The notes under the pieces were generated by a model. The model was not told where the DNA came from. It did no database searches and saw only the letters and a list, made by a program, of their open reading frames with translations. The translations under genes and the position numbers were made by a program. Shown piece by piece: positions 5,628 through 64,000 of a stretch of DNA of 64,000 bases. The stretch is from a virus. How positions within the stretch are numbered: the stretch's first letter is position 1; every line of letters begins with the position of its first letter. Location: positions 1-64,000 of IMG/VR virus record IMGVR_UViG_3300005534_000001; one strand, given 5' to 3'.

Positions 5628-5851
5628 GTCAGCCTACTTTCAGGAGGTGGAGGAAGCGTACGCTCCAGTGCTTCTTTGAGAATCCAGAAGTCCACCGCTG
5701 ATACTTCGAACTCATCCCCATCTATCACATCGCAGTCTGTAAATATCGCCTGCCCAGATCCTGCCCCGCCAAGATAGAATTGGCAGTCATGAATCACATA
5801 CCCGCTGTATTCTGGATTGTCCGCATTTCTCCACCAGATCGCGGCATACAC
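5624..5851 (-). CDS. Hypothetical protein
   Basis: 75 aa, acidic, beta-rich, with a PPPP stretch before the C-terminus. No motif recognised. Its stop overlaps the next start (ATGA at 5624-5627). About 59 bases of non-coding sequence separate it from the gene upstream. Confidence 0.6.
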   Translation of the reverse strand: MYAAIWWRNADNPEYSGYVIHDCQFYLGGAGSGQAIFTDCDVIDGDEFEVSAVDFWILKEALERTLPPPPESRLT

Positions 5852-37747: not shown

Positions 37748-37887
37748 AGCGTGATATCTACGGAAACCCTCGGATGTCTCCCGATGAGTGGATTGCTACT
37801 CGTATCGGCTGGGGCTGGGGAGTCGTGGTTGTCATGGGATTCGTGGCCTTTATCGTTGGCTTATGGGAAACTGCTAAACACTTTTAG
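37744..37887 (+). CDS. Small single-pass membrane protein
   Basis: 47 aa. Soluble N-terminus (DIYGNPRMSPDEW) and one hydrophobic span (GWGVVVVMGFVAFIVGLW). ATGA-coupled. TAG stop. Confidence 0.6.
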   Translation: MKRDIYGNPRMSPDEWIATRIGWGWGVVVVMGFVAFIVGLWETAKHF

Positions 37888-37894
37888 AATCAGA

Positions 37895-38266
37895 ATGCTT
37901 CTGGTCAAGACAGAAATCAAGCCAAGCTCAATTCACGGCATTGGTCTTTTCGCGGGCGAGGATATTGCAGCAGGGACGCTGGTGTGGGAATTCCGTGAGC
38001 CATTTGACCGGCACATGCCTGAGTCTGAATTTTATGCCCTCCCTCAGATAGCGCAAGAGCACGTTCGGCAAAGATCGATGCACAGCAAAGATGGCTGGTA
38101 TCTGTTCACTGGCGACAACGACCGATTCATCAATCATTCTGAGTTTGCCAATCTCATTACCAACGAAGAAATAAGCCAAAGCCATGCAGCGAGAAATATC
38201 GCGCGAGGCGAAGAACTTACCGAAGATTATCGGCTCTACAATGAGCCCGAAGGATTAAGTTTATGA
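37895..38266 (+). CDS. SET-domain protein (putative lysine methyltransferase)
   Basis: 123 aa from ATG 37895; the longer frame overlaps two genes. The SET fold is compact but complete: SSIHGIGLFAGEDIAAGTLV at 11-30 (SAM-binding GxG), RFINHSEFANL at 77-87 (NHS motif), and GEELTEDY at 105-112, where Tyr112 fits the catalytic Tyr. There are no pre- or post-SET zinc cysteines. SET enzymes methylate lysines in proteins; the target could be a host or virion protein. Overlaps the lipoprotein gene by four bases. Confidence 0.85.
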   Translation: MLLVKTEIKPSSIHGIGLFAGEDIAAGTLVWEFREPFDRHMPESEFYALPQIAQEHVRQRSMHSKDGWYLFTGDNDRFINHSEFANLITNEEISQSHAARNIARGEELTEDYRLYNEPEGLSL

Positions 38267-38763
38267 GAAAAAACAGATTCACCAATTTCAAGGCATGGCT
38301 GGTTCTGACGCTGGTCATCGTTGCAATCTCAGGCTGCATCAAGCGGCAAGGTACCGGCAAGCCAGTTACGCCATTCGAGCAGGTGATGGTCTGGAATGAT
38401 GCTCTGGCGCAGACCAATAACAGCGTGGCCAAAGGGATCATAGCGGTAAGCTCTGGTACCTCTCCGCTGGTTATGCCGGACAAAGCAGCCGTGATTCTTC
38501 TCCAGCAGCGTAATATTGCAACAGCCGACCAGCAATTGACGATCATTTTCAAGACAGGGCAGGCCGGCGCAACACTTCAGGCAGCGCAGATCCAGGCGTT
38601 ACTCAGTCAGATCAAGGCGGCCTCACTGGTACTCGTTGATTCCGGAGCCATCGGCGTAAAGAATCCGGCGAGTAAGCAGACGTTCGATGCTGATATCCAA
38701 GCCATCGGAGATTTAATTACCAATATCACGAGCGGGTTGAAGTCGGCGGGGGTGATTCAATGA
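38263..38763 (+). CDS. Putative lipoprotein
   Basis: 166 aa. Basic N-terminus (RKNRFTNFK), hydrophobic run AWLVLTLVIVA and lipobox ISGC, so Cys25 is the likely lipid-modified residue. The mature part is Ala/Gln-rich and helical. Could be a superinfection or spanin-like envelope protein. ATGA-coupled. Confidence 0.7.
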   Translation: MRKNRFTNFKAWLVLTLVIVAISGCIKRQGTGKPVTPFEQVMVWNDALAQTNNSVAKGIIAVSSGTSPLVMPDKAAVILLQQRNIATADQQLTIIFKTGQAGATLQAAQIQALLSQIKAASLVLVDSGAIGVKNPASKQTFDADIQAIGDLITNITSGLKSAGVIQ

Positions 38764-39158
38764 ACCTACAAGACACCAAAGATTATCAGGACTACTGGCG
38801 TGGGAAAGTAGGAAGGCCAGTTCAGCGGATCTGTAACCTTGGGTTCCAATGGTTGCCGTCTAACTATGATCCTCTGACAACCATTGACGCGGAAAAGTGG
38901 GCAGCACATTTCCTCCAAGTCCTCCGCGAAAATCCCGAAATCATCATTGACCACGATTTCATGCTTACATGGTTCTCCAATGCCATCATGCGTGGATACG
39001 ATGAGCGGTGCTGGCAATCGCTTCAGTACAAGCGCAGTATTCGCCGTGCTCTGTTCTCGCGCTGGAACTGGCGTCACTATGCCATCGCCGATTGGCTCTC
39101 GCCCAAACTCCGTGGCCCTGAATGGCGCAAACATCTTGGATTGGAAGGTGCAAAGTGA
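38760..39158 (+). CDS. Hypothetical protein
   Basis: 132 aa, Trp/Arg-rich (SRWNWRHYAIADWL, WSNAIMRGYDERCW region). No family recognised. ATGA-coupled to the lipoprotein gene. Confidence 0.6.
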   Translation: MNLQDTKDYQDYWRGKVGRPVQRICNLGFQWLPSNYDPLTTIDAEKWAAHFLQVLRENPEIIIDHDFMLTWFSNAIMRGYDERCWQSLQYKRSIRRALFSRWNWRHYAIADWLSPKLRGPEWRKHLGLEGAK

Positions 39159-39373
39159 ACGTAGCTCTTATTCTCCAGATCGGACAACTTGTTGCCACTC
39201 TTGGCCCTATTGCGCTGGACATGGCGCTGAAGATCCAGGCTTTACTTGCTCCATTGGGGCCGGATATCGCCGTCAACATTAAAGCATTGGGTGATGATGC
39301 AATCGCCGCAGACGCCGATACCGTGGCCGCCGTGAATGCTTTCTTGGCAGCGCATAACCTGCCGGCGATTTAA
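39155..39373 (+). CDS. Small hydrophobic protein, GTG start
   Basis: 72 aa from GTG 39155 behind GGAAGG, overlapping the upstream stop (GTGA). A long Ala/Leu/Ile helix (ALILQIGQLVATLGPIALDM), possibly membrane associated. Resembles small phage proteins near lysis genes only in composition. Confidence 0.5.
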   Translation: MNVALILQIGQLVATLGPIALDMALKIQALLAPLGPDIAVNIKALGDDAIAADADTVAAVNAFLAAHNLPAI

Positions 39374-39580
39374 ACAAACCTGCTCCCGTTGGCAGTGCAA
39401 GGTGCAAGGTAAGCAACGGGTGGCTGGACGACTCTTGCAATTAGAGTTGCATCCCGCGTGGCTCTCACTGGCCACGTAAAAGAATCGTGCAGTGAGTGGG
39501 GGGATGAGCGGCTCGAAAATTGGGCTACTGACACCTAGGCAAGGGCGGCTGCCGAATAACATGGCCGCCCGTCAATTTCA
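39374..39580 (+). other. Structured non-coding gap
   Basis: 207 bases without a convincing frame. Contains CGTGGC-N8-GCCACG (39457-39476), GGGCGGC-N14-GCCGCCC (39543-39570), and a tandem GTGCAAG. No T-run follows, so terminator function is weak. Not a tRNA: no T-arm or CCA-ready acceptor. Could be a small RNA or a leader structure for the gene at 39581, which lacks a ribosome site. Confidence 0.4.
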
Positions 39581-40282
39581 ATGACCAAACTCAGGTCAGT
39601 AATCTCAATCGTTCTCAGTCTCTCAGCCATCTTCGCTCTGTGCTCTGTGGGCTATTTCTTCATCCATTTAAGCCGAACAGCAGACGCACTGGCAAATACT
39701 CCAGAGAGCGCAAATAGGACGCTTGAATCCATTTCGGCGACATCGGCCAAGCTCTATGATACGACAACCCAATTAAACGATACGATTGCTCTTGCGAATA
39801 AACGACTCTTCGCGGATGGCGGCCTAATCCAAGCAACTCAGAAATCCATCGTGGCCTACAAATCAGTTGCCGTGGAAGCGGCGATAGGCGAGAAAAAGTA
39901 TTGGAATGAACTGGAAACCGGAACGACTGAGGTTCTGGGCAACGCGAATAAGGCGCTCCAAGGATTGACCACGGCAGAAGTTGGAGTAACGGCAGACTTC
40001 CACGAAAGCACGGCTCATCTGAATGCAGCAGTTGACCGAATCGGCCCAATGGTAGACCAGGGCGGGAAAACGCTCAGAACGGCACAAGGCGCAATTGAAG
40101 CCATAGACGTACCAGCGGTAAACGAAAGCCTCAGAAACGCAAGCCTAGCAACGGGGAATGTGGCTGTAGCAACTGGCGACATCAAAGACGCGGTACATCG
40201 GTGGACGAGGCCGGCATCGGTGCTGAAGTCGCTGGCCATTAATCTGTTGGGATTGGCGGGTAGCGCGAGGGCGTTCTTTTGA
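39581..40282 (+). CDS. Single-pass membrane protein with periplasmic coiled coil
   Basis: 233 aa. An N-terminal span (ISIVLSLSAIFALCSVGYFFI) and a long helical Ala/Thr/Asn-rich region with heptads (TLESISATSAKLYDTTTQL; ATGNVAVATGDIKDAV), ending in a second hydrophobic stretch. Recalls MCP-like or DUF948-like proteins without signalling motifs. Followed by a TTGA-overlapped gene. Confidence 0.6.
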   Translation: MTKLRSVISIVLSLSAIFALCSVGYFFIHLSRTADALANTPESANRTLESISATSAKLYDTTTQLNDTIALANKRLFADGGLIQATQKSIVAYKSVAVEAAIGEKKYWNELETGTTEVLGNANKALQGLTTAEVGVTADFHESTAHLNAAVDRIGPMVDQGGKTLRTAQGAIEAIDVPAVNESLRNASLATGNVAVATGDIKDAVHRWTRPASVLKSLAINLLGLAGSARAFF

Positions 40283-40662
40283 GCGACGAACCGCGCAAGA
40301 AAGCCTCTTATGTGGGAGCGCCAGCAGTGTTCGCTCTTGAGCAAGCCTGCAAAGACATCAACGATGCTTTCGGCGGGTACCGTTGCTATTTGGTTGGATC
40401 GGCGCTTGAACGTGGGGATTGGCGGGATGTAGATGTCCGCTACATTATGGAAGACGAAGAGTTCTCCGTGCTCTTTCCGAATGCTGGCCAGCAGTGGGAA
40501 CAAGATCCGCGCTGGCTATTGCTCACGGTTTCTATTTCGGAAAGGCTTTCCAGAATAACTGGGCTGCCGATTGATTTTCAGATTCAGCCGCAAACTCACG
40601 CCAATGAAAGGCATACAGGAATGCGTTCTGCAATCGGATTGAGAATATACAAACCAGAATGA
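40279..40662 (+). CDS. Nucleotidyltransferase-domain protein, TTG start
   Basis: 127 aa from TTG 40279, which overlaps the upstream stop (TTGA). YLVGSALERGDWRDVDVRYI carries the GS-x10-DxD signature of the minimal nucleotidyltransferase fold; a further Asp in DFQIQPQ may be the third metal ligand. Target unknown. Distinct from the gene at 501. Confidence 0.75.
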   Translation: MSDEPRKKASYVGAPAVFALEQACKDINDAFGGYRCYLVGSALERGDWRDVDVRYIMEDEEFSVLFPNAGQQWEQDPRWLLLTVSISERLSRITGLPIDFQIQPQTHANERHTGMRSAIGLRIYKPE

Positions 40663-40754
40663 AAATCTCCGACTTGCTAAATTCCACAGACAACAGAAAA
40701 GGTTCACGCTTACTAAGTCTTCTCGGTAGATTCTGGGGGAGATACCGAGATTGA
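40659..40754 (+). CDS. Very short hypothetical peptide
   Basis: 31 aa, basic (SRLLSLLGRFWGRYRD). ATG overlaps the upstream stop (ATGA) and the stop overlaps the start of a terminator stem. Supported only by position. Confidence 0.35.
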   Translation: MKISDLLNSTDNRKGSRLLSLLGRFWGRYRD

Positions 40755-40782
40755 GGGGCTGGAGACGGCCCCTCGCTTTTAT
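40753..40782 (+). terminator. Rho-independent terminator
   Basis: GAGGGGC-TGGAGACG-GCCCCTC (7-bp GC-rich stem, 8-nt loop) followed by GCTTTTATT. Ends the unit with the nucleotidyltransferase gene. Confidence 0.8.
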
Positions 40783-40802
40783 TCCCCGGCATCACACTCT
40801 TT

Positions 40803-41111
40803 ATGACCACTCAACAACTTTTCATACCGCGTGGCGTATTTGCCACCAAGATCATCATACTGGCGTTCGCAATTCCACTCGCTGCCATACTCGCTATCCT
40901 GGCAATAATACAAACAGGGAGTGTAAACGTGGACCCAGATACTATCGCAACACTGTGGAAGGCATTCTTTGGGCTCAGCGGAGCCGCTAACCTGTTCTGT
41001 GTTTACAAGTTAGCCGTGATCAGCTATCAACATAAACTCATGTGGACCGACTTCGAACGGCGTAAGCGATTGAACGGTGGCCACAGTCAACACTCCAGCG
41101 ATGGGGAATAA
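40803..41111 (+). CDS. Two-span membrane protein, holin-like
   Basis: 102 aa. Two hydrophobic spans (FATKIIILAFAIPLAAILAIL and LWKAFFGLSGAANLFCVYKLAV) and a charged C-terminus (FERRKRLNGGHSQHSSDGE) match class II holin layout, but no endolysin is certain nearby, so this is a guess from shape. Confidence 0.5.
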   Translation: MTTQQLFIPRGVFATKIIILAFAIPLAAILAILAIIQTGSVNVDPDTIATLWKAFFGLSGAANLFCVYKLAVISYQHKLMWTDFERRKRLNGGHSQHSSDGE

Positions 41112-48744: not shown

Positions 48745-49346
48745 CAGACGATCAATCACCAGAAACTACAAACGAAGAGCAGCCAAAGCCTAAGCGCAGA
48801 CACTTTATCCCCATCAAGGAGTCTCAGCTAGCTAAGAGCACAGCGGCCATTCTCATAGCCGAAGATCTGCTCACCGATGTCAAGATTGCTGAACGTGTCG
48901 GCATCAATCTAAAGACTCTTGGCAACTGGAAGCGCAATGAGCATTTCGCCGCTAAAGTTCTGGAGTACCAGAAAGCTTTTGCCGACCGCGCCCTAAAGCA
49001 TGGATTGGCCAACAAGGAAATCAGACTCCATGAGCTCGACAAGATGTATGCCGACCTGAAGCAGGTTATCCGGGAGCGGGGATCTTCCGAGGAAATGAAG
49101 AAAGTGCCTGGAGGTACTACTGGGCTAATCTGCAAGACCTACAAAGGCATCGGCATTAACCAGCAGGAGATTTTCGAGGTTGACAATCCTACCATCAAGC
49201 AACTGATTGCCATCCATGAGCAATATGCGCAAGAGCTTGGCCAGAAGATTGCCAAGATGGAAGTGGCATTTGGCAGTATTGCTGAGCGCATGGAAGCTGC
49301 TGAAGAGCGACTGAAGAACAGAATCCCGTCAACATGTGTGCAATAG
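48741..49346 (+). CDS. terS: Terminase small subunit (phBC6A51-type HTH)
   Basis: 201 aa from ATG 48741. A helix-turn-helix (VKIAERVGINLKTLGNWKRN) follows a basic N-terminus (KPKRRHF), as in phBC6A51-type small subunits, and helical oligomerisation segments follow (IRLHELDKMYADLKQVIRE). It should recognise the packaging site and hand DNA to the large subunit, whose gene overlaps by 13 bases. Confidence 0.7.
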   Translation: MTDDQSPETTNEEQPKPKRRHFIPIKESQLAKSTAAILIAEDLLTDVKIAERVGINLKTLGNWKRNEHFAAKVLEYQKAFADRALKHGLANKEIRLHELDKMYADLKQVIRERGSSEEMKKVPGGTTGLICKTYKGIGINQQEIFEVDNPTIKQLIAIHEQYAQELGQKIAKMEVAFGSIAERMEAAEERLKNRIPSTCVQ

Positions 49347-51829
49347 CAGCGCAAGAAGAAATCTATAACCGCCTTCATGATCGGCTGCTGGATTTCAAAT
49401 GGGATCCTTATGGATTTGCGCTTTACGCCTATCCTTGGGGTGAGGGGGAGCTGGCGAATTCTGCTGGTCCTCGTACTTGGCAGCGCGAAATCATGGAGAT
49501 TATTGGAGGACATCTCCAGAATCCCCAGACAAGATTTACGCCGTTACAAGTTGCTGTTTGTAGCGGCCACGGGATCGGCAAGCTACACTGTAAATCATTG
49601 GTAATAAATGATTTAAACGGCACAAAAAGATGGGGCGATATTCGGCCTGGGGATTTAGTTTTTGGTGGCGATGGAAGGCCAGTACGAGTCAAGTCCACTC
49701 ATGAGCAAGGAGTAAAGCCAATATATCGGGTTACATTCGATGATGGCTCATACACGCTTGTTGGCCTGGAACATCTATGGAATGTTCGCGGTCGCCAAGA
49801 AAGACGCAAGAAGTTAGAAGGATGGCGAACACTCACAACCGAACAGATTTTAGAGCTTGGAGTTCTGCGATCAAACGGCGTAGCACAGGCAAAGCAATGG
49901 GAAATACCGATTCAAGGGGCAGCGCAATTTGAGGAAAGAGAAATTGACCTTCATCCGTACTTTTTTGGGATATGGCTTGGCGATGGAACTAAAGGAATCC
50001 CGCAATATACTAAACCGTTCCCTGAATTGGTTGAGCGGCTTAGAAGTTTGGGGATGCAAGTCAATGAGCGCCCAGACGGCAAACACAAGAGAGTTATTGG
50101 GATATCTCATCTTCTCACCGATGCAGTCTTCAGTTGTGGCTCCCACGAAAGATACATCCCAGATTCCTACAAATTCAATACCGTTGAAAATCGGCGTGAA
50201 TTGCTTCGCGGCTTACTTGACACGGATGGCGAAGCAAATAGTTCTGGGAGTATTGGATACTCATCTACAAGTAAACGCCTTTGTGAAGATGTAATTTGGC
50301 TTGTCCGCTCTTTGGGCGGCAAGGCGATGATGCAGGATGCGGTAAAACATGGATGGTACCCAGATGGTGAAGGTGGAAGAGTTGAATGCCGGGATTGCTA
50401 CAGGGCCACAATTAACCTCGACTGGAATCCATTCACAATTGAGCATCGGCGAAAGGCGTGGAAACCATCTGAAGAGCGATATCTTAAACGCTGGATTGAG
50501 AGCATTGAGTATTCCCACGATGAGGACGCAATGTGCATCTCTGTTGATGCTCCAGATGGTCTTTATCTTGCCAATGATTTCATCGTAACGCACAATACGA
50601 GCCTGATTGCAATGTTGACTGCATGGGCCAAGAGCACATGCAGGGATTGCCGAGTCAAGATTACAGCGAACACTGGGCCGCAGTTAGACACCATCACAGT
50701 ACCAGAAGTATCAACTTGGTTCAGGCGGTTGATCAATGCGGATTGGTGGGACGTAAAAGCTACTTCGATCAAGGTAAGGGATACTAATTTTGAAAAGACA
50801 TGGCGAACAGATTTTGTCACTTGGAGCGCTAAAAATCCTTCCGCTTTTGCAGGCTTGCACAATTACGGGAAGCGAATCCTCTATATTTTCGATGAGGCAA
50901 GCGGAATTGATGACATTATCTGGGAAACAACGCAAGGTTCCATGTCGGATGAAAATACCGAGATCATCTGGCTTGCCTTCGGAAACCCGATTGAGCGAGA
51001 TGGGAGATTTGCAGAGTGTTTCGGCAAATTCGCCCATCGCTGGGTAAAGAAAAGAATTGATTCACGTACCGTCGAAGGAACCAACAAAGAGGCAATTCAG
51101 AAAGATGTTGACGATTGGGGCGAAGACTCAGACTTCGTTCGCGCTCGATGGCGCGGAGAGTTTCCACGTGCAGGCTCAAGCCAGTTCATCCCAAGTGATT
51201 CTGTAGCCTTCTGCCGAAAGTACAAAGCAACGGGCTACAGCGGCCTGCCAAAGATCATGGCGGTTGACGTGGCGCGGTTTGGCGATGATCAAACGACCAT
51301 CGGGTATCGGCAGGGAAGAAAGGCAGTCATTCTCGCAAAGTATCGCGGATTGGACACGGTTCAGGTAGCAGAACATGTTATTGAGTTTATGGAATCCGAA
51401 GATCCCGATGCAGTGGTCATCGACGGTGATGGTCTCGGTGCCGGAGTGGTCGATCACATTAAGCACCGTGGATTTGGGAAGAAAGTTTTCGAGTTTCATG
51501 GAGGGGCCACGCCGAACGATGTAGCGAAGTATTTCAATCGCCGTGCTGAGATTTGGGGATTAGGCCGTGACGCTCTTAAGGCAGGAATGGAAATTCCCGA
51601 TGATCCTGAGCTCGACTCTGACTTGACCGGAATAAAGTACGGATTTGGACCGAAGGGCCAGATTCAACTTGAGCGCAAAGAGGATATGAAGAAACGCGGA
51701 TTGAAGAGCCCAGATCTTGGAGATATGCTTATGATGACATTCGCAGTTAGGATCATGGCGAAAAAGAAAGAGACTGCGACTCGGCCAGTTCTTTCGAGTT
51801 ATGCTGGTAATTCTTGGATGGGAGCATGA
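49334..51829 (+). CDS. terL: Terminase large subunit interrupted by an intein
   Basis: 831 codons: extein-N (1-83), intein (84-421), extein-C (422-831), giving a mature 493-aa TerL. The joined Walker A reads SGHGIGK-TSL, cut between Lys83 and Thr422. Walker B with catalytic Glu is LYIFDEASG (D520-E521). The nuclease domain follows with MAVDVARFGDDQT (about 640), AVVIDGDGLGAG and DLGDMLMM, the three acidic blocks of RNase-H-type terminases. It cuts concatemers and drives ATP-dependent packaging into the portal. The intein must splice for ATPase activity. Confidence 0.95.
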   Translation: MCAIAAQEEIYNRLHDRLLDFKWDPYGFALYAYPWGEGELANSAGPRTWQREIMEIIGGHLQNPQTRFTPLQVAVCSGHGIGKLHCKSLVINDLNGTKRWGDIRPGDLVFGGDGRPVRVKSTHEQGVKPIYRVTFDDGSYTLVGLEHLWNVRGRQERRKKLEGWRTLTTEQILELGVLRSNGVAQAKQWEIPIQGAAQFEEREIDLHPYFFGIWLGDGTKGIPQYTKPFPELVERLRSLGMQVNERPDGKHKRVIGISHLLTDAVFSCGSHERYIPDSYKFNTVENRRELLRGLLDTDGEANSSGSIGYSSTSKRLCEDVIWLVRSLGGKAMMQDAVKHGWYPDGEGGRVECRDCYRATINLDWNPFTIEHRRKAWKPSEERYLKRWIESIEYSHDEDAMCISVDAPDGLYLANDFIVTHNTSLIAMLTAWAKSTCRDCRVKITANTGPQLDTITVPEVSTWFRRLINADWWDVKATSIKVRDTNFEKTWRTDFVTWSAKNPSAFAGLHNYGKRILYIFDEASGIDDIIWETTQGSMSDENTEIIWLAFGNPIERDGRFAECFGKFAHRWVKKRIDSRTVEGTNKEAIQKDVDDWGEDSDFVRARWRGEFPRAGSSQFIPSDSVAFCRKYKATGYSGLPKIMAVDVARFGDDQTTIGYRQGRKAVILAKYRGLDTVQVAEHVIEFMESEDPDAVVIDGDGLGAGVVDHIKHRGFGKKVFEFHGGATPNDVAKYFNRRAEIWGLGRDALKAGMEIPDDPELDSDLTGIKYGFGPKGQIQLERKEDMKKRGLKSPDLGDMLMMTFAVRIMAKKKETATRPVLSSYAGNSWMGA
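49583..50596 (+). other. Class 3 intein with LAGLIDADG homing nuclease
   Basis: 338 aa. Block A starts with Leu (LHCKSLVIND) rather than Cys or Ser. Block B has GLEHLW (His64, Trp66), block F MCISV with Cys318, block G VTHN (Thr336, His337, Asn338), then +1 Thr. Trp, Cys and Thr are the class 3 triad, in which the block F Cys makes the branch. Between lie DOD homing motifs: FFGIWLGDG and LLRGLLDTDGEA. Insertion directly after the Walker A lysine is a usual target. Confidence 0.9.
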
Positions 51830-54103: not shown

Positions 54104-56419
54104 ATGCCAGCCCTCGTAGAAGCCACAGGTAGCCCCAAGCAAAAAGAAATAGATGAAGAAGAGCAAGCCAGAATTGATCTGGATGCTTTTCTGACTCTTG
54201 CGCGCAAGCGTTTCTCTATTGCTGAAGAGGCTGAGGCAGAAAACCGCAAAGCTTCTCTTGAAGATCTGGAATTTTTCACTGGAGAGCAGTGGCCGAACGA
54301 TGTCAAGGCCGCAAGAAGCGCCGATGGACGCCCATGCCTCACAATCAATCGGCTCAAGGGCATAAAGAATCAAGTCACGAACGAGCAGAGGCAGCAGAGG
54401 CCAGCAATTCAAGTAAACCCTCGTGGAGACGGAGCCAGCACGGAGACCGCCGAAGTCTATCAAGGGATAATACGAGACATTGAGGTAAACTCTGACGCTG
54501 AAATTGCCTATGACAGTTCATTCGAAGGAATGGTCATCGGTGGATTCTCGTACTTCCGCGTTCTCACTGATTACCTTCCCGGATTAAGTTTTGAGCAGGA
54601 ACTTAAGATCAAGCGGATCAAAAATCCCTTCACGGTTTACTTTGATCCAACCTGCATTGAACCTGATTATTCCGATGCAAACTGGGCCTTCATCATCGAA
54701 GACCTGTCGAAACAGGAATACAAAGCGCAGTTTCCTAAGTCTGAAGCCGCTTCGATGGTGGACTTCAGCAGTATTGGAGATCAATCGCCGGGATGGGCCG
54801 CAAAAGAGACAATTCGCATCGCTGAGTACTTCCATGTTGAGCACGATACCCAGCCGATTGTGCTTCTTGATGATAATCGCGTGATGCTCAAAGAACATGC
54901 GCCAAAAGATGCGGTAATCGTTAAATCCAGAGACATGATAGTTCGCCGCGTGGTCTGGACAAAGATCAATGCCATCGAGAAATTGAAAGAGACTTCTTGG
55001 CTTGGCCAGTGGATACCGATTATCCCGGTACTCGGCGACGATCTGGACGTAAACGGGAAAAGGTACCTTGCTGGATTGATCAGAAACGCAAAAGACGCAC
55101 AAAAGCAATACAACTACATGAACTCGGCGGCCACAGAGCAGATTGCATTGGCCACTAAAGCCCCATATTTGGCAGTGGAAGGCCAGATGGAAGGCTTTGA
55201 GAAAATGTGGGAACAGGCCAATGTCAGGAATTTCTCGTTCCTGTATTACAAGGCTGTTGATGTTCAAGGTAAACCCGCTCCTCCTCCGACACGCAATGCG
55301 GTAGAGCCACCTATTCAGGCAATGGCAGTGATGATCAGGCAGGCTGACAATGACCTGAAAAGTACTACAGGCATTTATGACGCATCTTTGGGGGAAAGAG
55401 GGCCAGACCAGTCAGGGAAGGCGATTCTAGCTCGACAGAAGCAGGGAGACGTTGCCACGCTCAACTTTAGCGACAATCTGGCGCGGTCGATTCGCTTTCT
55501 TGGCAAGCAATTGGTGGATTTGATTCCGAGAGTTTATACCGCAGCGCGAATCCAAAGAATCATCAAGCCAGATCAAACGGTTGATCATGTGGGAATATGG
55601 AATTCCTCAATGCATGATGCCGGTACCGACCCGCGCACATTGCCGGGAATGACCGATCCGTCAATCAAGAGGATCTTTGACATTGGTACAGGGCGCTACG
55701 ATGTAACGGTATCGGTTGGGCCTTCATATCAGTCGAAGAGGCAGGAAGCAGTTTCTTCGCAACTTGCGCTCATTCAGGCTGACCCTGATATTTTGAAGGT
55801 CGCTGGCGATCTGCTAATCAGGAACATGGATTGGCCGGGATCAAAAGAAATTGCTGACAGAGTAAAGAAGATGTTGCCTCCACAATTGCAAGACGATAAT
55901 GGAGATCCAGCAGCGCAACTCCAGAAGGCGCAATCTCAACTTCAGCAACTAAATCAGCAGCATGAATTATTGACTCAGCATCTTACTGCTGCCAATGAAA
56001 CGATCAAATCTAAGCAACAAGAGCAAGAGGCCAAGATGTCCATCGCCAAGGCTCAGATTGATGCCGATTTGATCAAGACGAAACTGGAACTTGAGAATAA
56101 ATTGGCGATTGCCGAAATCACTACCAAGGCCCAAGACCGTCAGCAGAGAGCTCAATTAGAACAGGATATGTGGATGGCGCTGCACAATTCGGCGCACGAT
56201 GCGGCAACTCAAGCGACAGATCAAACGCACGAAGCGGGAATGCAGACTGCCGACCAGCAGCATGAAGCACAACTTCAGCAAGCCCAACAGCAACATGAAG
56301 GCGAACAGGCCACCCAATCCCAAGGTGCAGAAGCAGACCAAGCTACTCAGGCCCAAGCAGCCGCACAACAGCAACAAGAATCGGCGCAAGCCGCAGAACC
56401 TCAAACTCCAGGAGAATAA
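54104..56419 (+). CDS. Portal protein, P22-like
   Basis: 771 aa. EDLEFFTGEQWP near the N-terminus, RPCLTINRLKGIKNQVTNEQRQQRP, then FEGMVIGGFSYFRV and FTVYFDPTCIEPDYSDANW are the order of P22-like portals. The C-terminal ~150 residues are Gln/Ala-rich coiled coil, the portal barrel or a tail. Forms the dodecameric ring at one vertex through which DNA passes. Confidence 0.9.
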   Translation: MPALVEATGSPKQKEIDEEEQARIDLDAFLTLARKRFSIAEEAEAENRKASLEDLEFFTGEQWPNDVKAARSADGRPCLTINRLKGIKNQVTNEQRQQRPAIQVNPRGDGASTETAEVYQGIIRDIEVNSDAEIAYDSSFEGMVIGGFSYFRVLTDYLPGLSFEQELKIKRIKNPFTVYFDPTCIEPDYSDANWAFIIEDLSKQEYKAQFPKSEAASMVDFSSIGDQSPGWAAKETIRIAEYFHVEHDTQPIVLLDDNRVMLKEHAPKDAVIVKSRDMIVRRVVWTKINAIEKLKETSWLGQWIPIIPVLGDDLDVNGKRYLAGLIRNAKDAQKQYNYMNSAATEQIALATKAPYLAVEGQMEGFEKMWEQANVRNFSFLYYKAVDVQGKPAPPPTRNAVEPPIQAMAVMIRQADNDLKSTTGIYDASLGERGPDQSGKAILARQKQGDVATLNFSDNLARSIRFLGKQLVDLIPRVYTAARIQRIIKPDQTVDHVGIWNSSMHDAGTDPRTLPGMTDPSIKRIFDIGTGRYDVTVSVGPSYQSKRQEAVSSQLALIQADPDILKVAGDLLIRNMDWPGSKEIADRVKKMLPPQLQDDNGDPAAQLQKAQSQLQQLNQQHELLTQHLTAANETIKSKQQEQEAKMSIAKAQIDADLIKTKLELENKLAIAEITTKAQDRQQRAQLEQDMWMALHNSAHDAATQATDQTHEAGMQTADQQHEAQLQQAQQQHEGEQATQSQGAEADQATQAQAAAQQQQESAQAAEPQTPGE

Positions 56420-56947: not shown

Positions 56948-58969
56948 ATGAAAAAACTAATCTCGTTATTATTCCTGATTTCAACTCTGTCGTTTTGCCA
57001 GAGTTTTTCGACTGGGAGCATAACGGCTTCCGGTACGACATGTGCGACAACAAACGCTTGCATTGCTCTTCATCTCCCAATAAATACGGCCACGGTAGCA
57101 GTAACAATTACGGGTACATGGACAGGAACAATTCAATTCGAGGGAGCCGCAAACGATCCTTCGGTGACATTCGTTTCAGTCTCCGGCCAGCCGTTGCCAT
57201 CGGGTGTATTAGCTAGTTCGGCAACGGCAAATGGAACATGGATTTTTCCGGCAGGAGCACTTAGCGATTTTCATGTTAGGGAATCGGCGGCGATGACCGG
57301 AGCCGCCGTTGTTACTATCAATGCATCTCTTGGGGCTACTCCACAAGGGACAACGATTAGCGGCACAGTAAATCAAGGTGCAGCCAATGCTACTCCGTGG
57401 AATCAGAATATTTCACAGGTAGCAGGGCAGATTCTTGGAGCAATCGCAAATTATGGGACAACGCCGGGACCTGTTCTGGTGCCGGGGGTGAATGCATTTA
57501 TAACGAATGTGCCAGCAGTTTCCCAATCTGGTACATGGACAGTCCAACCTGGCAACACAGCGAACACAACGCCGTGGCTGTTTACCATTCAGCAGGGCGG
57601 CAATCCGGCAACGGTATCAGCGGGTGGTGCGCTCAAGGTGGACGGGAGCGCAGTCACGCAGCCGGTTAGCGGAACGGTCGCAACGTCAAATTTACCTAAC
57701 ACCGTCGATACTGGTACCGGAGCATCGGGAGCAAGCACAATTCGCGTTGCTCCTGGAACTGGGAACTTTACCGTTGTCCAGCCTACAGGCACCAATTTAC
57801 ACGTGGTGGCCGATACGGGCAGCACAATGACGGTAACCGGAAACGTGAGCACAGTTGGCACGGCTAGCAACAACGCAGGCGCACCAGCAGCAACAAGCAA
57901 TCTCGGCGTTCTTCCCGCAATCGCCAACGCGGCCAGCCCTTCTTGGACAGAAGGCAATCAGGTTCTCGCGAGCACCGATTTAACCGGCAGGCAGAGAGTA
58001 CGCGGCACAGCAACAAACAATAATGCGGCTCCTGGAGCGGACCAGATTGACATAATGCCGAACGTGGCCAATGCGGCCTCCCCGACTTGGGTAGAAGGCA
58101 ATTCAACAAAGGACAGCGTAGATCTCGCCGGGCGTAAGCGCACTTTTAACCCGGATCTCACGCCGGGAACCTGCACGATCACAGCTTCAGGTACAGCCAA
58201 CGGCTGCACAGTCACCATGAGCGGATACGCTGGTGCGGGATTCATTGTGACGGCAGGCGGGGCAGGAACGGCAACACTTGCGCCTTATATCGTTGGGCCT
58301 GATTGTTCCACAATTCGCACCACAGCAACGCAGATGATGGACGTTGCTAACGGAAGCGTAGTTTCCAGTGTTGCCAATCCGGCAACCGGCAAGGTGTATC
58401 AATTACTTGGGCCGCAAGCGGGAGATTGTAAAGTGGGAGTGTATGCCAGCGCATTTACGGCAAACATCACCATCCAATTGAGGGCAACCACGATACCGTT
58501 TGCTGGTCAAGGGTTTAATGTTAACGGTGGCACTTGGACACCGTGGCCTCTTTATACGAATGCGCCTTCGACCACTAACGGTCAACCGTTCTGGCAGAGC
58601 TATGTTGACCCTTGCGCGGCCCCCGGAGTTCTAAAGTCACACAAGTTCGCCAACATCACCACTTCAACTACAACGCAGATCATTGCTGTTTCCGGGTCCA
58701 CAAACATTTATATATGTGGGATTGACGTTCAGCTCAACTCAACCACCTCGAGCACTATCTTGTTTGAGCATGGCACCGGAGCGGCTTGCACTGGAACGGT
58801 ATCGGACACGGCAACCTATTCAAACGGCGGCCTTACTTCTGAAACTATTCACATGGGATTTGGAGCAGGAACTTATTACGCAACTGGAGCATCACAAGGC
58901 GTCTGTGCGGTGACTACCGTTGGCACTTCGCCAACAATTTCAGTGGACATCACGATGGTTCAGCAGTAG
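56948..58969 (+). CDS. Large surface/tail-type protein with signal peptide
   Basis: 673 aa from ATG 56948. MKKLISLLFLISTLSFCQ is a Sec signal peptide (n-region KK, Leu-rich core, FCQ end), cleaved before SFS. The mature part is Thr/Ala/Gly/Asn-rich with beta repeats (QPVSGTVATSN, TSNLGVLPAIANAASP..., NVANAASPTWVEGN twice-like), as in phage surface or tail fibres. Two near repeats of an N-A-S-P-S/T-W-x-E-G-N unit near residues 345-390. It is odd that a virion protein is exported. Confidence 0.75.
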   Translation: MKKLISLLFLISTLSFCQSFSTGSITASGTTCATTNACIALHLPINTATVAVTITGTWTGTIQFEGAANDPSVTFVSVSGQPLPSGVLASSATANGTWIFPAGALSDFHVRESAAMTGAAVVTINASLGATPQGTTISGTVNQGAANATPWNQNISQVAGQILGAIANYGTTPGPVLVPGVNAFITNVPAVSQSGTWTVQPGNTANTTPWLFTIQQGGNPATVSAGGALKVDGSAVTQPVSGTVATSNLPNTVDTGTGASGASTIRVAPGTGNFTVVQPTGTNLHVVADTGSTMTVTGNVSTVGTASNNAGAPAATSNLGVLPAIANAASPSWTEGNQVLASTDLTGRQRVRGTATNNNAAPGADQIDIMPNVANAASPTWVEGNSTKDSVDLAGRKRTFNPDLTPGTCTITASGTANGCTVTMSGYAGAGFIVTAGGAGTATLAPYIVGPDCSTIRTTATQMMDVANGSVVSSVANPATGKVYQLLGPQAGDCKVGVYASAFTANITIQLRATTIPFAGQGFNVNGGTWTPWPLYTNAPSTTNGQPFWQSYVDPCAAPGVLKSHKFANITTSTTTQIIAVSGSTNIYICGIDVQLNSTTSSTILFEHGTGAACTGTVSDTATYSNGGLTSETIHMGFGAGTYYATGASQGVCAVTTVGTSPTISVDITMVQQ

Positions 58970-58981
58970 CCATATTCAGCA

Positions 58982-61141
58982 ATGATAATTAAATTGATCT
59001 CAGCATGTACCATCCTGTGCTCTTCTATTTTCGGACAGAGCATCAATTCCTCATCCCAACCGGGCGCAACCGCTGATGTTCAAATCAGCAATGCAATTGC
59101 CGCACTCGCTGGCAATGGAACCGTGGTCGCTGATTACCTCACAGTTCAGACCTTTGCAGCCTGTCCATTGTGGGGAAGCAACAAGATCATTCTTGAACTT
59201 CGTCCTGTTCAGTTCAATTTAAATTCAGCCTGCACTATTCCGATTAACGTTTCACTTAAGATGTGGAACGGTGCTCTTCTTGCTCCAGCAGCCAATATTA
59301 ATTTTTTCATAAATGGCAATGTGGATGCGCAACCTCAGCAGCGAATCGTAAACATCACCAATGGGAATGTGGTATTTCAGCACGTTCCAACGATCTGGTG
59401 GGACTGGTACGGAGCGGCAGACCTCGCTAATTCAGACGGCCCGATTCAGGCAGGCTTGAACGCGCTGGCATTGACAGGCGGGGCAGCAGCGCGGAAACCT
59501 CCATTCCTTTGTGTCCCAGGCGGGAACTATACGCTTCATTCGCGGCCATTGCATATTGCAACCGGCAACGTGATTTTTGGTGGACCTGGCAGCGGATCGG
59601 AGTCATGCGGATTTCGGGAGAATTGGGGATTCGGGCCAAGCCTCGTGATCGGACCAAGCCCAGCGCAAGGGTATTGCGGACAAGGTACGACCTGCACGGT
59701 ATCAGCTCCCTTGGTTGCTGGATTGACCACGAGCGGCGGGAATGCTCTCAACTTCGATGGCATTCATCCGTACTGGTTTAATTTGTCTCTCGACACCAAA
59801 GAGTTGAACGCTATGAATGGCCTCACGCAATTGACGTTAGAGGCATTCGTAAACACTAGCGCCGTGGCAACGGGCATGATCATGGGATCATCGGGCAGGT
59901 TCGCTCAATCCGATCCAGTTACCCAGGCATTCAGTCTGCTTCTTGTGGGATCGGTGCCAACCTGCAAAATCAACACGAGCAACGGGATGGTACAGGTCAA
60001 CGGCGGCAGTCTCACAGTAGGAACCACGGCGCATGTTGCCTGTTCGTGGGATGGCTCAACGGTTCGCCTATTCGTGGCTGGCGTAGAAACCGCCTCGGGA
60101 GCAGCAACCGGCACCCTACTGAAGAAAGATTCCGAGGATGTGACCATCGGACCAGCGTTGCAATCATGGCCGGATGCTGGAGTTCTGACCAACGCCTGCA
60201 AATGCACGATTGACAGCCCAAAGATAAGTAACATCGCGCTCTATACGAGTGATGCCGGGTTCACTCCTCCAACGGCGAAACTCGTAAAAGATGCCAACAC
60301 TTTAGCCCTTTTGAACTTTGCAAACTGCTTTGACGTGTTCTGCGACTTTCAGAGCAAAGATGCTAACGGGTTCCTGTTTTTTCGCAACGCCACATTTGCA
60401 GCCGCGCTGAACAATGTGCAACTTAAAGACCTCGTAATCAGCACAGGAACGGGGTTCGGAGGCGGTCTCTACTGGTACCAAACAAACCGATGGCAGCAGA
60501 ACAACTTGCACATTGCGTTGAACACTGGAGCAGCAGATTACTTCTGGAACAACTCGTTCATTGGCAGTGCGAGGACTCTATACATTGATGCTGGAGGGAC
60601 TGGCAATGGGCCTCTAGGCCATGATCTCATCGGCCTTGGGATGGTCGGTGCGGTCGGCGTGATTGAACTTGATGACGTGAATGTCACGGGCGGTCAATAC
60701 CAGATTGTGGGCAATGGTGGGAGCGGTCAATTCAATCGTCTTTACACTGCCCCAACTACAGAAACGTCCTTTTCAGTATTTGCCAAGGGAAGCGGAGGAT
60801 CTGAAACCTTTCAGTTTAACAATCTGGCTTGTGATGCCGAAGTATCGGGAGCGGGAGCAACCTTTCAGGCTTGCGCTTACATTTCGAACATGCGAACTGT
60901 TCAATTCATAGGCGGGGAACTGGAAGCAACTCAGCAATCTCCGCTTTGGGTGGATGGAGGAGAGTCAGTAACCGTTATCGGTTCTCGTTTTCTTCAGACG
61001 ATAAGCTATCCAGCGCAGATCGTGCATGTGGTTAATCCACCGACGCAAACGATACACATATTCAACGCGGTTCAGGCTGGAACACAATTCGGGCATACCC
61101 TGCCTTGGTGCGACAACATGACCGCTTGCTTGGTTCAGTAA
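58982..61141 (+). CDS. Tailspike-like protein with LamG-type domain and signal peptide
   Basis: 719 aa. MIIKLISACTILCSSIFGQ is a Sec signal peptide. DVQISNAIAALAGNGTVVADY at the N-terminus fits a beta-helix cap of pectate-lyase-like tailspikes. A laminin-G/concanavalin-like domain lies around 255-440 (LTLEAFVNTS, HVACSWDGSTVRLFVAGVE), followed by more beta-helix rungs. It probably binds or cuts host polysaccharide. Confidence 0.7.
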   Translation: MIIKLISACTILCSSIFGQSINSSSQPGATADVQISNAIAALAGNGTVVADYLTVQTFAACPLWGSNKIILELRPVQFNLNSACTIPINVSLKMWNGALLAPAANINFFINGNVDAQPQQRIVNITNGNVVFQHVPTIWWDWYGAADLANSDGPIQAGLNALALTGGAAARKPPFLCVPGGNYTLHSRPLHIATGNVIFGGPGSGSESCGFRENWGFGPSLVIGPSPAQGYCGQGTTCTVSAPLVAGLTTSGGNALNFDGIHPYWFNLSLDTKELNAMNGLTQLTLEAFVNTSAVATGMIMGSSGRFAQSDPVTQAFSLLLVGSVPTCKINTSNGMVQVNGGSLTVGTTAHVACSWDGSTVRLFVAGVETASGAATGTLLKKDSEDVTIGPALQSWPDAGVLTNACKCTIDSPKISNIALYTSDAGFTPPTAKLVKDANTLALLNFANCFDVFCDFQSKDANGFLFFRNATFAAALNNVQLKDLVISTGTGFGGGLYWYQTNRWQQNNLHIALNTGAADYFWNNSFIGSARTLYIDAGGTGNGPLGHDLIGLGMVGAVGVIELDDVNVTGGQYQIVGNGGSGQFNRLYTAPTTETSFSVFAKGSGGSETFQFNNLACDAEVSGAGATFQACAYISNMRTVQFIGGELEATQQSPLWVDGGESVTVIGSRFLQTISYPAQIVHVVNPPTQTIHIFNAVQAGTQFGHTLPWCDNMTACLVQ

Positions 61142-61232
61142 CTCCAAAACAAATTAATCAGGACTTATAAATCACGCCCATTGGTCGGCATTTTAATAGG
61201 CCAAGAATTAATCAGCTTAAAGGAGCGATATT

Positions 61233-62216
61233 ATGAATGAAATTACCATTGTTTCTTCCACGGATACACAAGCCGAAGTAAACGCAGCTCTGGGAATTGA
61301 AGAGCCCAAAGCGACTGAAGTAAAAGAAGAACCCAAACCAGAAGTCAAAGAAACTCCAGCAGTTGAGAAGCCTGCAAAAGAATCCAAGGCTGCCAACGAA
61401 ACAGAAGAAGAAAGAGCAGAAGCCGAGAAAGACAAAGGCAAAGGCGGCTGGCAGCGCCGTATCGACAAACTGACCAGAGAAAAATACGAACTTCTTGAAG
61501 AGAATCGCAATCTTCGCGCTGGCAAGGAACGCTTGGGGGCTGTGCCCGCTGTGGCGACCGAGGAAGAGCCAAAGAAACCAGTAGTCGAAGATGATCCACA
61601 GCCCAAGAAGGAAGCCTTCACCGATTATGAAGAGTACCTTGATGCGCGAGCAGCATGGAGAGCGCGGCAAGAGTTCAAGGCCCTGACAGAGAAACAATCC
61701 AAGGAGTCTGATCAAGCCGCAGAAAATCAGCGCATCCAGGAAACATTCGACAGTTACAACAAGAGATTCGAGCAAGCCAAATCCGACATCCCTGATCTTG
61801 AAGAGAAACTGCTTGAGGCAGCCCAAGCCGGTGTAAATATCCCGCAAGCAGCAATTATGGCCATCTATGAATTGGAGAATGGCCCAGAAGTTTCTTACTA
61901 CATCGCTACCAATTCAGATGTAGCAGAAAAACTCAACAAGATGACCACTCTCCGCGCAGTGGCCGAAATTGGCCGCATTGCCTATACCTTGCAGAATAAT
62001 CCAAAGGAAGAGACCAAAGCGGAACCAAAGCCGAAGGCCGAAGAGCCTAAGCCTGCAAAAGTTGAAGCCCCAAAGACAAAGGCCGCGAGTCCTCCACCTG
62101 AGCCTATAGCTCCAGTGGGCGGCTCCTCAACCAATGCGAGCGTCCCGGATTTCGACAAAATGAGCATGTCTGAATACACGGCATGGTACAAAAAGAATTA
62201 TCCAGGCGTCCGCTAA
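61233..62216 (+). CDS. Scaffold-like protein
   Basis: 327 aa, behind AAGGAG. Glu/Lys/Ala/Pro-rich and largely coiled (EEERAEAEKDKGKGGWQRRI, NRLRA region), C-terminus ending in a short conserved SMSEYTAWYKKNYPG segment, as in scaffolds where the C-terminal helix binds the coat. Directly before the coat gene, the usual place of the scaffold. Confidence 0.75.
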   Translation: MNEITIVSSTDTQAEVNAALGIEEPKATEVKEEPKPEVKETPAVEKPAKESKAANETEEERAEAEKDKGKGGWQRRIDKLTREKYELLEENRNLRAGKERLGAVPAVATEEEPKKPVVEDDPQPKKEAFTDYEEYLDARAAWRARQEFKALTEKQSKESDQAAENQRIQETFDSYNKRFEQAKSDIPDLEEKLLEAAQAGVNIPQAAIMAIYELENGPEVSYYIATNSDVAEKLNKMTTLRAVAEIGRIAYTLQNNPKEETKAEPKPKAEEPKPAKVEAPKTKAASPPPEPIAPVGGSSTNASVPDFDKMSMSEYTAWYKKNYPGVR

Positions 62217-62232
62217 ATTCAGGAGAATTTAA

Positions 62233-63435
62233 GTGAACACCCTTTTAACTTCCAGTATCATCACCAAAGAAGCCGTACGGGTGCTTGAGAACAATCTTAC
62301 TCTGACCAAGCACATCAACCGCGACTACGATGATCAATTCGCCAAAAAGGGCGCAGTCATCGGCAATACCATCAACGTACGCAAACCGCCCCGTTACATC
62401 GGTACCACTGGATCTGCGCTCTCAATTGAAGATGCGACCGAGACCAGCGTACCGTTGACACTCACCACTCAATTCCACGTGGACATCGCCTTCACCACGG
62501 TCGATTTGACCTTGAGCATCAACGATTTCAGCCGCCAATTCATCAAGCCTGCCATCGCGGCCATTGCCAACAAGGTAGACTTTGATGCCTCGTTGCTCTA
62601 CCAGACGGTTTACAACACCATCGGCACTCCGGGAACTACGCCCAACGCACTGCTGACTTATCTTCAGGCACAGCAGCGCTTGAACGAAGAAGCGGCTCCT
62701 TTGGATGAGCGCAGCCTGTGCATGACTCCTGCCATGAATGCTGCCATCGTGGACTCTCTCAAGGGATTGTTTCAGTCCTCTGAAAAAATCCGCGAACAGT
62801 ACGAAAAGGGCATGATCGGGATGTCCATTGGTCTTGAATGGTACATGGATCAGAACCTGCGCACCCATAAGATTGGGCCTCTTGGCGGTACACCTCTGGT
62901 AAGCGGTGCCGGACAGACAGGTACCTCTTTGCTGACCTCTGGATGGACGGCTGCTGCGGCTTCCCGGCTCAAAAAGGGCGATGTATTCACGATTGCCAAT
63001 GTGAATGCGGTGAACCCTCAGAATCGGCAATCCACTGGCTCACTTCGCCAGTTTGTCGCGACGGCTGATTTCTCTTCGGCTGCGGATGGAACGGGAACCA
63101 TTTCTATCTCGCCCGCTCTGACCGTTGCTGGCCCCTTCCAGACCGTGGATGCACTTCCGGCCAATGCCGCTGCAATCACTGTCTTTGGCGCGGCCAATAC
63201 CCAAACTCCTCAAGGTCTCGTGTTCCATCGGGACGCCTTCACGATGGGCGTTGCCGATCTCATGATGCCCCAGGGAGTCGATATGAACAACAGGGTATCG
63301 GACAAGCAACTTGGATTGAGCCTTCGCCTTGTCCGCGCCTACGACATCAACACGGACCGCCTGCCATGCCGCACAGACATCCTGTACGGTTTCGCGCCGA
63401 TTTACCCGGAACTTTGCTGTAGGATAGCGGGATAG
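62233..63435 (+). CDS. Major capsid protein, P22 gp5-like
   Basis: 400 aa, GTG start behind AGGAG. LTSSIITKEAVRVLENNL, NRDYDDQFAKKGAVIGNTINVRKP and LSINDFSRQFIKPAIAAIANKVD are the P22 coat protein order (HK97 fold with an I-domain region about 200-310). Length is close to P22 gp5. Forms the icosahedral shell on the scaffold. Confidence 0.9.
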   Translation: MNTLLTSSIITKEAVRVLENNLTLTKHINRDYDDQFAKKGAVIGNTINVRKPPRYIGTTGSALSIEDATETSVPLTLTTQFHVDIAFTTVDLTLSINDFSRQFIKPAIAAIANKVDFDASLLYQTVYNTIGTPGTTPNALLTYLQAQQRLNEEAAPLDERSLCMTPAMNAAIVDSLKGLFQSSEKIREQYEKGMIGMSIGLEWYMDQNLRTHKIGPLGGTPLVSGAGQTGTSLLTSGWTAAAASRLKKGDVFTIANVNAVNPQNRQSTGSLRQFVATADFSSAADGTGTISISPALTVAGPFQTVDALPANAAAITVFGAANTQTPQGLVFHRDAFTMGVADLMMPQGVDMNNRVSDKQLGLSLRLVRAYDINTDRLPCRTDILYGFAPIYPELCCRIAG

Positions 63436-63453
63436 CTAGATAACCACCATCCA

Positions 63454-63482
63454 AAGAGGGGTGCGCAATCGCCCCTCTTATT
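63454..63482 (+). terminator. Probable intrinsic terminator
   Basis: AAGAGGGG-N10-CCCCT-CTT, an 8-bp stem, followed by ATTCACACTT. Between the coat gene and the next exported gene; the T-run is short. Confidence 0.6.
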
Positions 63483-63505
63483 CACACTTCAGGAGAACAA
63501 AGTTT

Positions 63506-64000
63506 ATGAAACACGTGAAAGCAATCATTCTTTTCTGTCTACTGGTGGTTTTGGCGGGAACTGGATTTGGTCAGGCCACTCTGCAATCAACAACCGTTTC
63601 GGCTGCTGTAGGATTGAACGATCAGTCAATCGTCGTTGCCTCAGCCACTGGTTTTGTCGCTCCGAACAATGGAGCAATTGCCAGCATCGTATTCATTGAC
63701 CAAGAAGCACTGGGAGTCCAGTCAATTTCCGGCACTACCATTGGCGTCATTCGTGGATATGGTGGAACCCGATCTACTGCTCACGCTTCAGGCACGACAA
63801 CCTATATTGGGCCGCCTAATTACTACGTGTCGTTTCCACAAGCTGGAGCCTGCACAGCAGCCAATCAGGTAGTTTTGCCGACAATCAATATCACCAGCGG
63901 ATTGCAGTACAACTGCCTTGGCGGTGTGTGGGTAGCAATCAATCCGTTGCCTACCAAGTTGTTTTTCCCTGCCGGAACTGCTTCGGTGACCTCATTCAAT
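63506..64000 (+). CDS. Exported surface protein, 3' end off the window
   Basis: ATG 63506 behind AGGAG, open to the window end (165 codons seen). MKHVKAIILFCLLVVLAGTG followed by FGQ is a third Sec signal peptide of the same style. The mature part has Gly/Ser/Thr-rich strands (IVVASATGFVAPNNGAIA, VIRGYGGTRSTAHASG), similar in composition to the proteins at 56948 and 58982. Confidence 0.75.
   Translation, partial: MKHVKAIILFCLLVVLAGTGFGQATLQSTTVSAAVGLNDQSIVVASATGFVAPNNGAIASIVFIDQEALGVQSISGTTIGVIRGYGGTRSTAHASGTTTYIGPPNYYVSFPQAGACTAANQVVLPTINITSGLQYNCLGGVWVAINPLPTKLFFPAGTASVTSFN

Follow-up and report, generated by a model that had tools for sequence, protein, structure and literature searches.

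Predicted Sec signal peptides on outer, adhesin-type proteins of a P22-like phage

Four genes in and downstream of a 64,000-base stretch of viral DNA encode adhesin-type proteins whose N-terminal leaders are, judged from their sequences, well supported as working Sec export signals. The stretch, which we call the window, spans positions 1 to 64,000 of an IMG/VR record of 92,527 bases, classed as linear, and the genes are referred to here as A, B, C, and D. In this short-tailed soil phage and some of its relatives, the predicted leaders are limited to peripheral genes, are gained and lost between homologues at what would be the mature start, and precede particle-type domains that are conserved behind them. 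Virion assembly of tailed dsDNA phages is held to be cytoplasmic. The best explanation, in our view nearly an even call, is that the 4 proteins are exported by Sec, trimmed, folded outside the cytoplasm, and attached to finished particles at or after lysis.

The morphogenesis module

A P22-like morphogenesis module occupies the window from 49 kb onward, in the order large terminase (with a LAGLIDADG insertion), portal, a 133-aa gene, A, B, scaffold, coat, and C. The portal (54104 to 56419, + strand; PF16510, E 3.2e-165; PHROG portal, 1.2e-131), scaffold (61233 to 62216, +; phrog_8865, 1.7e-34), and coat genes (62233 to 63435, +; PF11651, 2e-44; phrog_283, 7e-87) are of P22 type and stand in the order found in P22-like podophages of the Lederbergvirus type, and none of the three carries a leader. 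Downstream of the window follow two small genes, genes for gp4- and gp10-like proteins, a 110-aa protein, D, and further genes; after D come a small acetyltransferase-like gene, ejection-type proteins, and a 424-aa protein. The labels gp4, gp7, gp10, gp16, and gp20 are assumed by us from size, order, and presumed similarity, and among these genes past the window, the 424-aa protein is the only one with a family link from a search. A second IMG/VR record of the same phage (L005; 3300027986_000034; 17.9 kb) shows 100% identity across coat, C, B, and portal. The sample number 3300027986 is shared by this record and that of a related phage, L100.

Several other genes drew attention. The insertion in the terminase ORF (49334 to 51829, +) is homing-endonuclease/intein-like (PF14528, 9.4e-5) and, by eye, separates the Walker A halves GHGIGK and TSLIAM. 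The window also encodes a SET-domain protein (37751 to 38266, +; PF00856, 1.7e-10), which is unexpected for a phage, and a cluster of small genes (38263 to 41111, +) whose N-termini are lipoprotein-like and transmembrane and which may act in lysis or at the envelope. In several relatives (L002:7352-7810, L100:13185-13775, L166:10943-11422, and L177:18660-19118), the acetyltransferase-like gene, named by eye, is flanked by the tailspike slot on one side and the ejection-type genes on the other.

Leaders of A, B, C, and D

Gene A (673 aa; 56948 to 58969, +) begins MKKLISLLFLISTLSFC|QSF, the bar marking the predicted cleavage site behind a signal peptide of 17 codons (56948 to 56998, +). Gene B (719 aa; 58982 to 61141, +) begins MIIKLISACTILCSSIFG|QSI, with a signal peptide of 18 codons (58982 to 59035, +). 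Gene C encodes 365 aa and extends to genome position 64603, with its first 165 codons in the window (63506 to 64000, +); its signal peptide of 22 codons (63506 to 63571, +), preceded by AGGAG, gives the N-terminus MKHVKAIILFCLLVVLAGTGFG|QAT. The tailspike-like gene D lies past the window (genome 68255-70675) and begins MRTLFLALMLSICANC|QQVDW. In all 4 proteins the residue at +1 is Q, and position −1 is occupied by C in A and D and by G in B and C. Each leader shows the basic n-region, the uncharged hydrophobic core of 8-15 residues, and the small −1 residue expected for Sec and signal peptidase I, with B and D scoring lower. A lipoprotein signal peptide was ruled out for A–D by the Q, rather than Cys, at +1, and a Tat signal peptide by the lack of a twin arginine, checked by eye, in the leaders of A–D and of the L100 head-binding protein described below.

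Leaders were scored with a rule-based caller written for this analysis, which gave 11.0 for A, 8.8 for B, 13.6 for C, and 8.9 for D; for A, B, and C, its own preferred cleavage sites are displaced by a few residues from the x|Q positions shown above. Among internal ATG codons of the surveyed loci, 0 of 3306 reached 8.5 and 4 reached 7, and among gene starts in other P22-like loci, 3 of 1156 reached 8.5 and none reached 10. The signal of B is the weakest of the four and, taken alone, the least certain.

The first-pass annotation had described a basic n-region, a hydrophobic core, and an FCQ/FGQ end on 3 surface-type proteins (A, B, and C), with none on the portal, scaffold, and coat genes. Sequence and caller bear out both observations, although with D the count of three rises to at least 4 in the morphogenesis region. 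Outside that region, a 212-aa Cys-rich protein (genome 83846-84484, minus strand; L003:4847-5485) also carries a leader, with 20 Cys within the 192 residues past it.

Features of A, B, and D

The N-terminal domain of A was recognized by alignment and profile search in leader-bearing proteins of L100 (20755-22086) and L182 (3522-4343), and A gave 0 matches in Pfam, PHROG, and the phage collection. B contains a LamG lectin-like domain (PF13385, E 9.3e-10; phrog_3545, 4.3e-13) and matched Synechococcus phage structural proteins by tblastn with a best E of 2e-5. Neither the A profile nor B matched a PDB entry, and profile search, the phage collection, and tblastn yielded no leaderless homologues of either. 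Past their leaders, A has 10 Cys and B 16. The relative of D in L100 is 56% identical and begins with a quite different leader, followed by the same QQ[VI]DW. D resembles the pectate-lyase type at a level below the cut-off (PF12708, 1.7e-4), had no PDB sequence match, and gave an unusable structure model (mean pLDDT 37.8). No particle-binding domain was recognized in A, B, or D.

The C family beside the coat gene

C directly follows the coat gene in the window and in L100, L182, L006, L162, L166, L174, L177, L007, and L012, and lies within the same module in L159; profile search found its domain in further loci, including L181. In the alignment, the C proteins of the window, L100, L159, and L182 carry leaders that differ in sequence. 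The initial Met of C in L006, L162, L166, L174, and L177 falls at the very column where these leaders end, and in L180, L007, and L012 the protein starts at most 2 residues from that column. L096 has 2 leader-bearing genes in which the C domain starts some 25-35 residues past the leader.

Right after the leader of C comes a phage tail type domain. The structure model is confident for about residues 25-105 only, a region that the structural matches suggest to be a small OB-like barrel. Phage chains ranked first in Foldseek and VIA-align, with VIA-align Z of 10.9 for VP1 capsid chain M, 10.1 for both the Chi tail tip and the GP4 portal-tail chain, 9.9 for the JBD30 baseplate, and 9.2 for the Mystique tube. 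ATP synthase barrels also appeared, with Z no higher than 8.2, which shows that an OB-like barrel is a common fold. As structural evidence for C, we used only the phage rows (Z 9.2-10.9) and the profile match to PDB sequences, in which the Chi minor tail protein (8vjh) was found at 1.8e-8 and the JBD30 tip protein at 1.3e-5.

A head-binding domain with and without a leader

The 424-aa protein of the window phage (genome 78448-79722) begins MASVALTPVPR without a leader, contains 0 Cys, and matches the solved tailspike head-binding chains 7eeq (1.1e-6) and 9vyg (9.5e-6). Its homologue in L100, of 434 aa, begins MKKRILVRASLCVLSFLALSCLGRA|QVQVAIAPVPK and matches 9vyg at 7.6e-6 and 7eeq at 1.6e-4. 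The two are identical at 55 of 85 positions in the domain and at 101 of 270 in the remainder. A lax caller printed SPII for the L100 leader, but on inspection by eye LALSC makes a poor lipobox, and cleavage at GRA|Q fits better.

The domain, which both phages share with P22-like podophages, was present in 61 loci, 60 of them testable. A leader was found in 1 of these 60, the L100 phage; unlike the L100 protein, the other 59 examined head-binding proteins lack one. P22's own head-binding protein is not known to have a leader either. In the L100 phage, a 197-aa lipoprotein-like gene (L239:5800-6393, +; positions converted by hand) adjoins the leader-bearing head-binding protein.

Survey of relatives

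Genes of at least 150 aa with a score of at least 10 were sought in 209 loci, a set that contains many short loci and near-copies. Nine loci contained such genes (L002, L005, L096, L100, L118, L143, L159, L174, and L182), L002 and L005 being the same phage. No core gene (portal, scaffold, coat, gp10-like, or ejection-type) reached 10 in any of the 209 loci. Because B and D in the window phage fall below this threshold, the survey undercounts. One of the 2 matches in L159 is a lipoprotein-like gene at 5777, outside the module. In L174 the leader is on the gene after the gp10-like gene, while C has none; in L118, from a Planctomycetota MAG, it is on a tailspike candidate, pectate-lyase-like by eye, that also follows the gp10-like gene. 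L143 was dropped as a bacterial-looking contig; the leader gene of L175, which lies outside the phage module and adjoins a reading frame that is NusG-like by eye, was dropped as well.

A coat tree of 43 rows, made by a quick method, requires 5 changes to account for its 7 leader-bearing rows, and a minimum of 3 follows from the well-supported branches; 17 of 500 shuffles gave as low a count. These counts are rough, since the label covers any leader in a locus and depends on the contig extent available. The window and L182 form a sister pair whose coats are 73% identical, L100 and L159 form another, and L118 falls elsewhere.

Cysteine content

In a first comparison, 14 leader-bearing proteins were far richer in Cys than 28 virion proteins without leaders (Mann-Whitney p 2e-7), most of the 28 being core proteins. 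In a class-matched control, the leader-bearing proteins had a median of 1.67% Cys against 1.43% in 52 leaderless head-binding proteins (p 0.009), with 15 proteins from partly redundant loci that include the L100 head-binding protein and L118 and leave out the 212-aa protein. Given this small difference, Cys content was rejected as proof of an oxidizing compartment, and it is weak evidence for export. The leader-bearing tailspike candidate of L118 contains a single Cys. A small subdomain of C contains a Cys pair in all 4 leader-bearing rows and is present without Cys in L007 and L012, and the L100 head-binding protein has 10 Cys against 0 in its leaderless homologue from the window phage; both observations are suggestive only.

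Discussion

We infer that A–D would actually be exported, cleaved, folded outside the cytoplasm, and attached at lysis. Made late, together with the morphogenesis genes, they would cross the inner membrane via the host Sec machinery, be trimmed by signal peptidase I just before the glutamine, and fold and trimerize outside the cytoplasm. Since the core head and tail parts lack leaders, particles should still form inside: heads with portal, gp4/gp10-like tail parts, and ejection proteins would be built in the cytoplasm as usual. At cell lysis the two pools would meet, and the exported adhesins could join finished particles with no new machinery needed. By analogy, the leader-bearing proteins appear to be outer parts, of the kind that can be added last in known phages. 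P22 tailspikes, for instance, add to tailless heads in vitro.

The first-pass annotation had reasoned that export would remove these proteins from the particle. This does not follow, as export could merely delay attachment until lysis. Its broader reading is supported as far as export of surface-type proteins and a cytoplasmic core are concerned, given the leaders and the core genes that lack them; between display or secretion on the one hand and maturation outside the cytoplasm on the other, sequence does not decide. Homologues with and without the signal peptide, which it had proposed to look for, were found in both the C family and the head-binding pair. Attachment to the particle is favoured here by the phage-tail type OB-like domain that C shares with its leaderless homologues and, as the main ground for preferring it to loss from the particle, by the L100 head-binding domain that stands behind a leader.

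It is quite possible, if on the whole doubtful, that the leaders work and the proteins never rejoin the particle. They would then be secreted or surface-held adhesins or glycan-acting enzymes that loosen an exopolysaccharide matrix, mask receptors against superinfection, or keep released phage off debris, and the particle would use the leaderless head-binding protein. The window phage indeed retains such a protein of P22 type and may thus have adhesins besides the exported ones, and the lectin-like domain of B and the sub-threshold pectate-lyase resemblance of D would suit enzymes or binders of this sort. Bacteria likewise export proteins with phage-fibre or tailspike folds by means of signal peptides, as described for the Bdellovibrio MAT fibres (PMC10769870) and for Pantoea WceF, which leaves by Tat (PMC7949094), although there the bacteria themselves encode and use the proteins, rather than a phage with a virion. 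A leader on the L100 head-binding protein itself is hard to explain, however, if export means leaving the particle, and C keeps both its domain and its place beside the coat gene in the two states, its gene persisting while leaders were gained or lost at least 3 times by the locus-level label. Against late attachment count the leaderless, Cys-free head-binding protein of the window phage, the rarity of leaders among the examined head-binding proteins (1 of 60), the small class-matched Cys difference, the acidobacterial loci without clear leaders described below, the failure of the searches to find leaderless homologues of A or B, the low caller scores of B and D, and the absence of a recognized particle-binding domain in A, B, and D. 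For these three, free or surface-held adhesins or glycan-acting proteins are nearly as likely as late attachment, and both could be true for different proteins of one phage.

We consider it improbable that the hydrophobic N-termini serve not for export but as tails that bind the virion in the cytoplasm or insert into membranes. Phage membrane-active proteins do use hydrophobic N-terminal segments; a binding tail, however, would be expected to be conserved, whereas here the leaders vary between homologues and the residues after them are conserved. The basic n-regions, the signal peptidase-like sites, and the existence of leaderless homologues also argue against such tails. An artefact, through misassigned start codons, faulty assembly, or hydrophobic stretches that arose by chance, is very improbable. 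A, B, and D lack a strong ribosome-binding site, the caller is self-written, and B is borderline; yet the other possible starts in A, B, and D lie at least 15 codons beyond the leader and would truncate the protein (in A, the next in-frame candidates are GTG at codon 73 and TTG at codon 83). Moreover, the start of D overlaps the stop codon of the upstream small gene in both the window phage and the L100 phage, the same genes recur in the second record, and chance seldom produced comparable scores in the controls (0/3306 and 3/1156 at 8.5 or above).

Export followed by late attachment has partial parallels in known systems. Filamentous virions assemble at the membrane. Their coat proteins, such as M13 G3p, are virion proteins made with Sec signal sequences (PMC8310372). 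Unlike in those phages, capsid and core tail proteins lack leaders here, and a filamentous phage coat protein identity was ruled out by the P22-like coat and portal encoded in the genome. Phage L Dec sits on P22-like capsids by an OB-fold foot and binds finished P22 capsids in vitro (PMC6449081; for binding also PMC7602432). C resembles Dec in having an OB-like domain and a gene that adjoins the coat gene, but the available part of PMC6449081 describes no leader for Dec, and Dec is absent from the structural rows listed for C. Among phage proteins with export signals, endolysins such as fOg44 Lys44 are Sec-routed like A–D but are lysis enzymes, neither adhesins nor virion parts (PMC6116005); Xanthomonas phage PBR31 has a predicted signal peptide on an esterase thought to aid lysis (PMC10975493), and signal peptides are predicted in the rumen Bacteroides phages phiBrb01/02 (PMC5723332). 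Searches of open-access papers, at the level of listings and passages, turned up no Sec signal peptide described for a tailspike or head-binding protein of a tailed phage.

More generally, and somewhat more tentatively than not, some tailed phages may finish their particles outside the cytoplasm, with Sec-exported receptor-binding spikes and decoration-type proteins that mature in the periplasm and are fitted at lysis, the route being switched in evolution by gain or loss of a signal peptide before a conserved particle-binding domain. If receptor-binding parts are Sec-routed, adhesins could gain disulphides or escape cytoplasmic proteases, could stay separate from capsid assembly until lysis, and could tie host range to the export apparatus. 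A leader in front of a head-binding domain would then be a simple marker for more cases in metagenomes, and the question can be tested directly on natural homologue pairs that differ in the leader.

Indications of the host

Leaders as a general acidobacterial trait were ruled out: L106, L139, and L111, P22-like coats in acidobacterial genomes, have no clear leaders, the one weak case being in L111 (9.8), so the feature is not host-phylum-wide. Weak matches to C and D occur in 8 and 4 of 396 Acidobacteriota genomes, respectively, mostly as a shared domain within other long proteins, and were left out of the argument. The lipoprotein gene of L159 matched 0 of the 396 genomes. A dispersed repeat-like stretch in the same locus (L159:11893-12300) matches multi-copy 65-base repeats in 2 of the 396, which is only a hint of the host.
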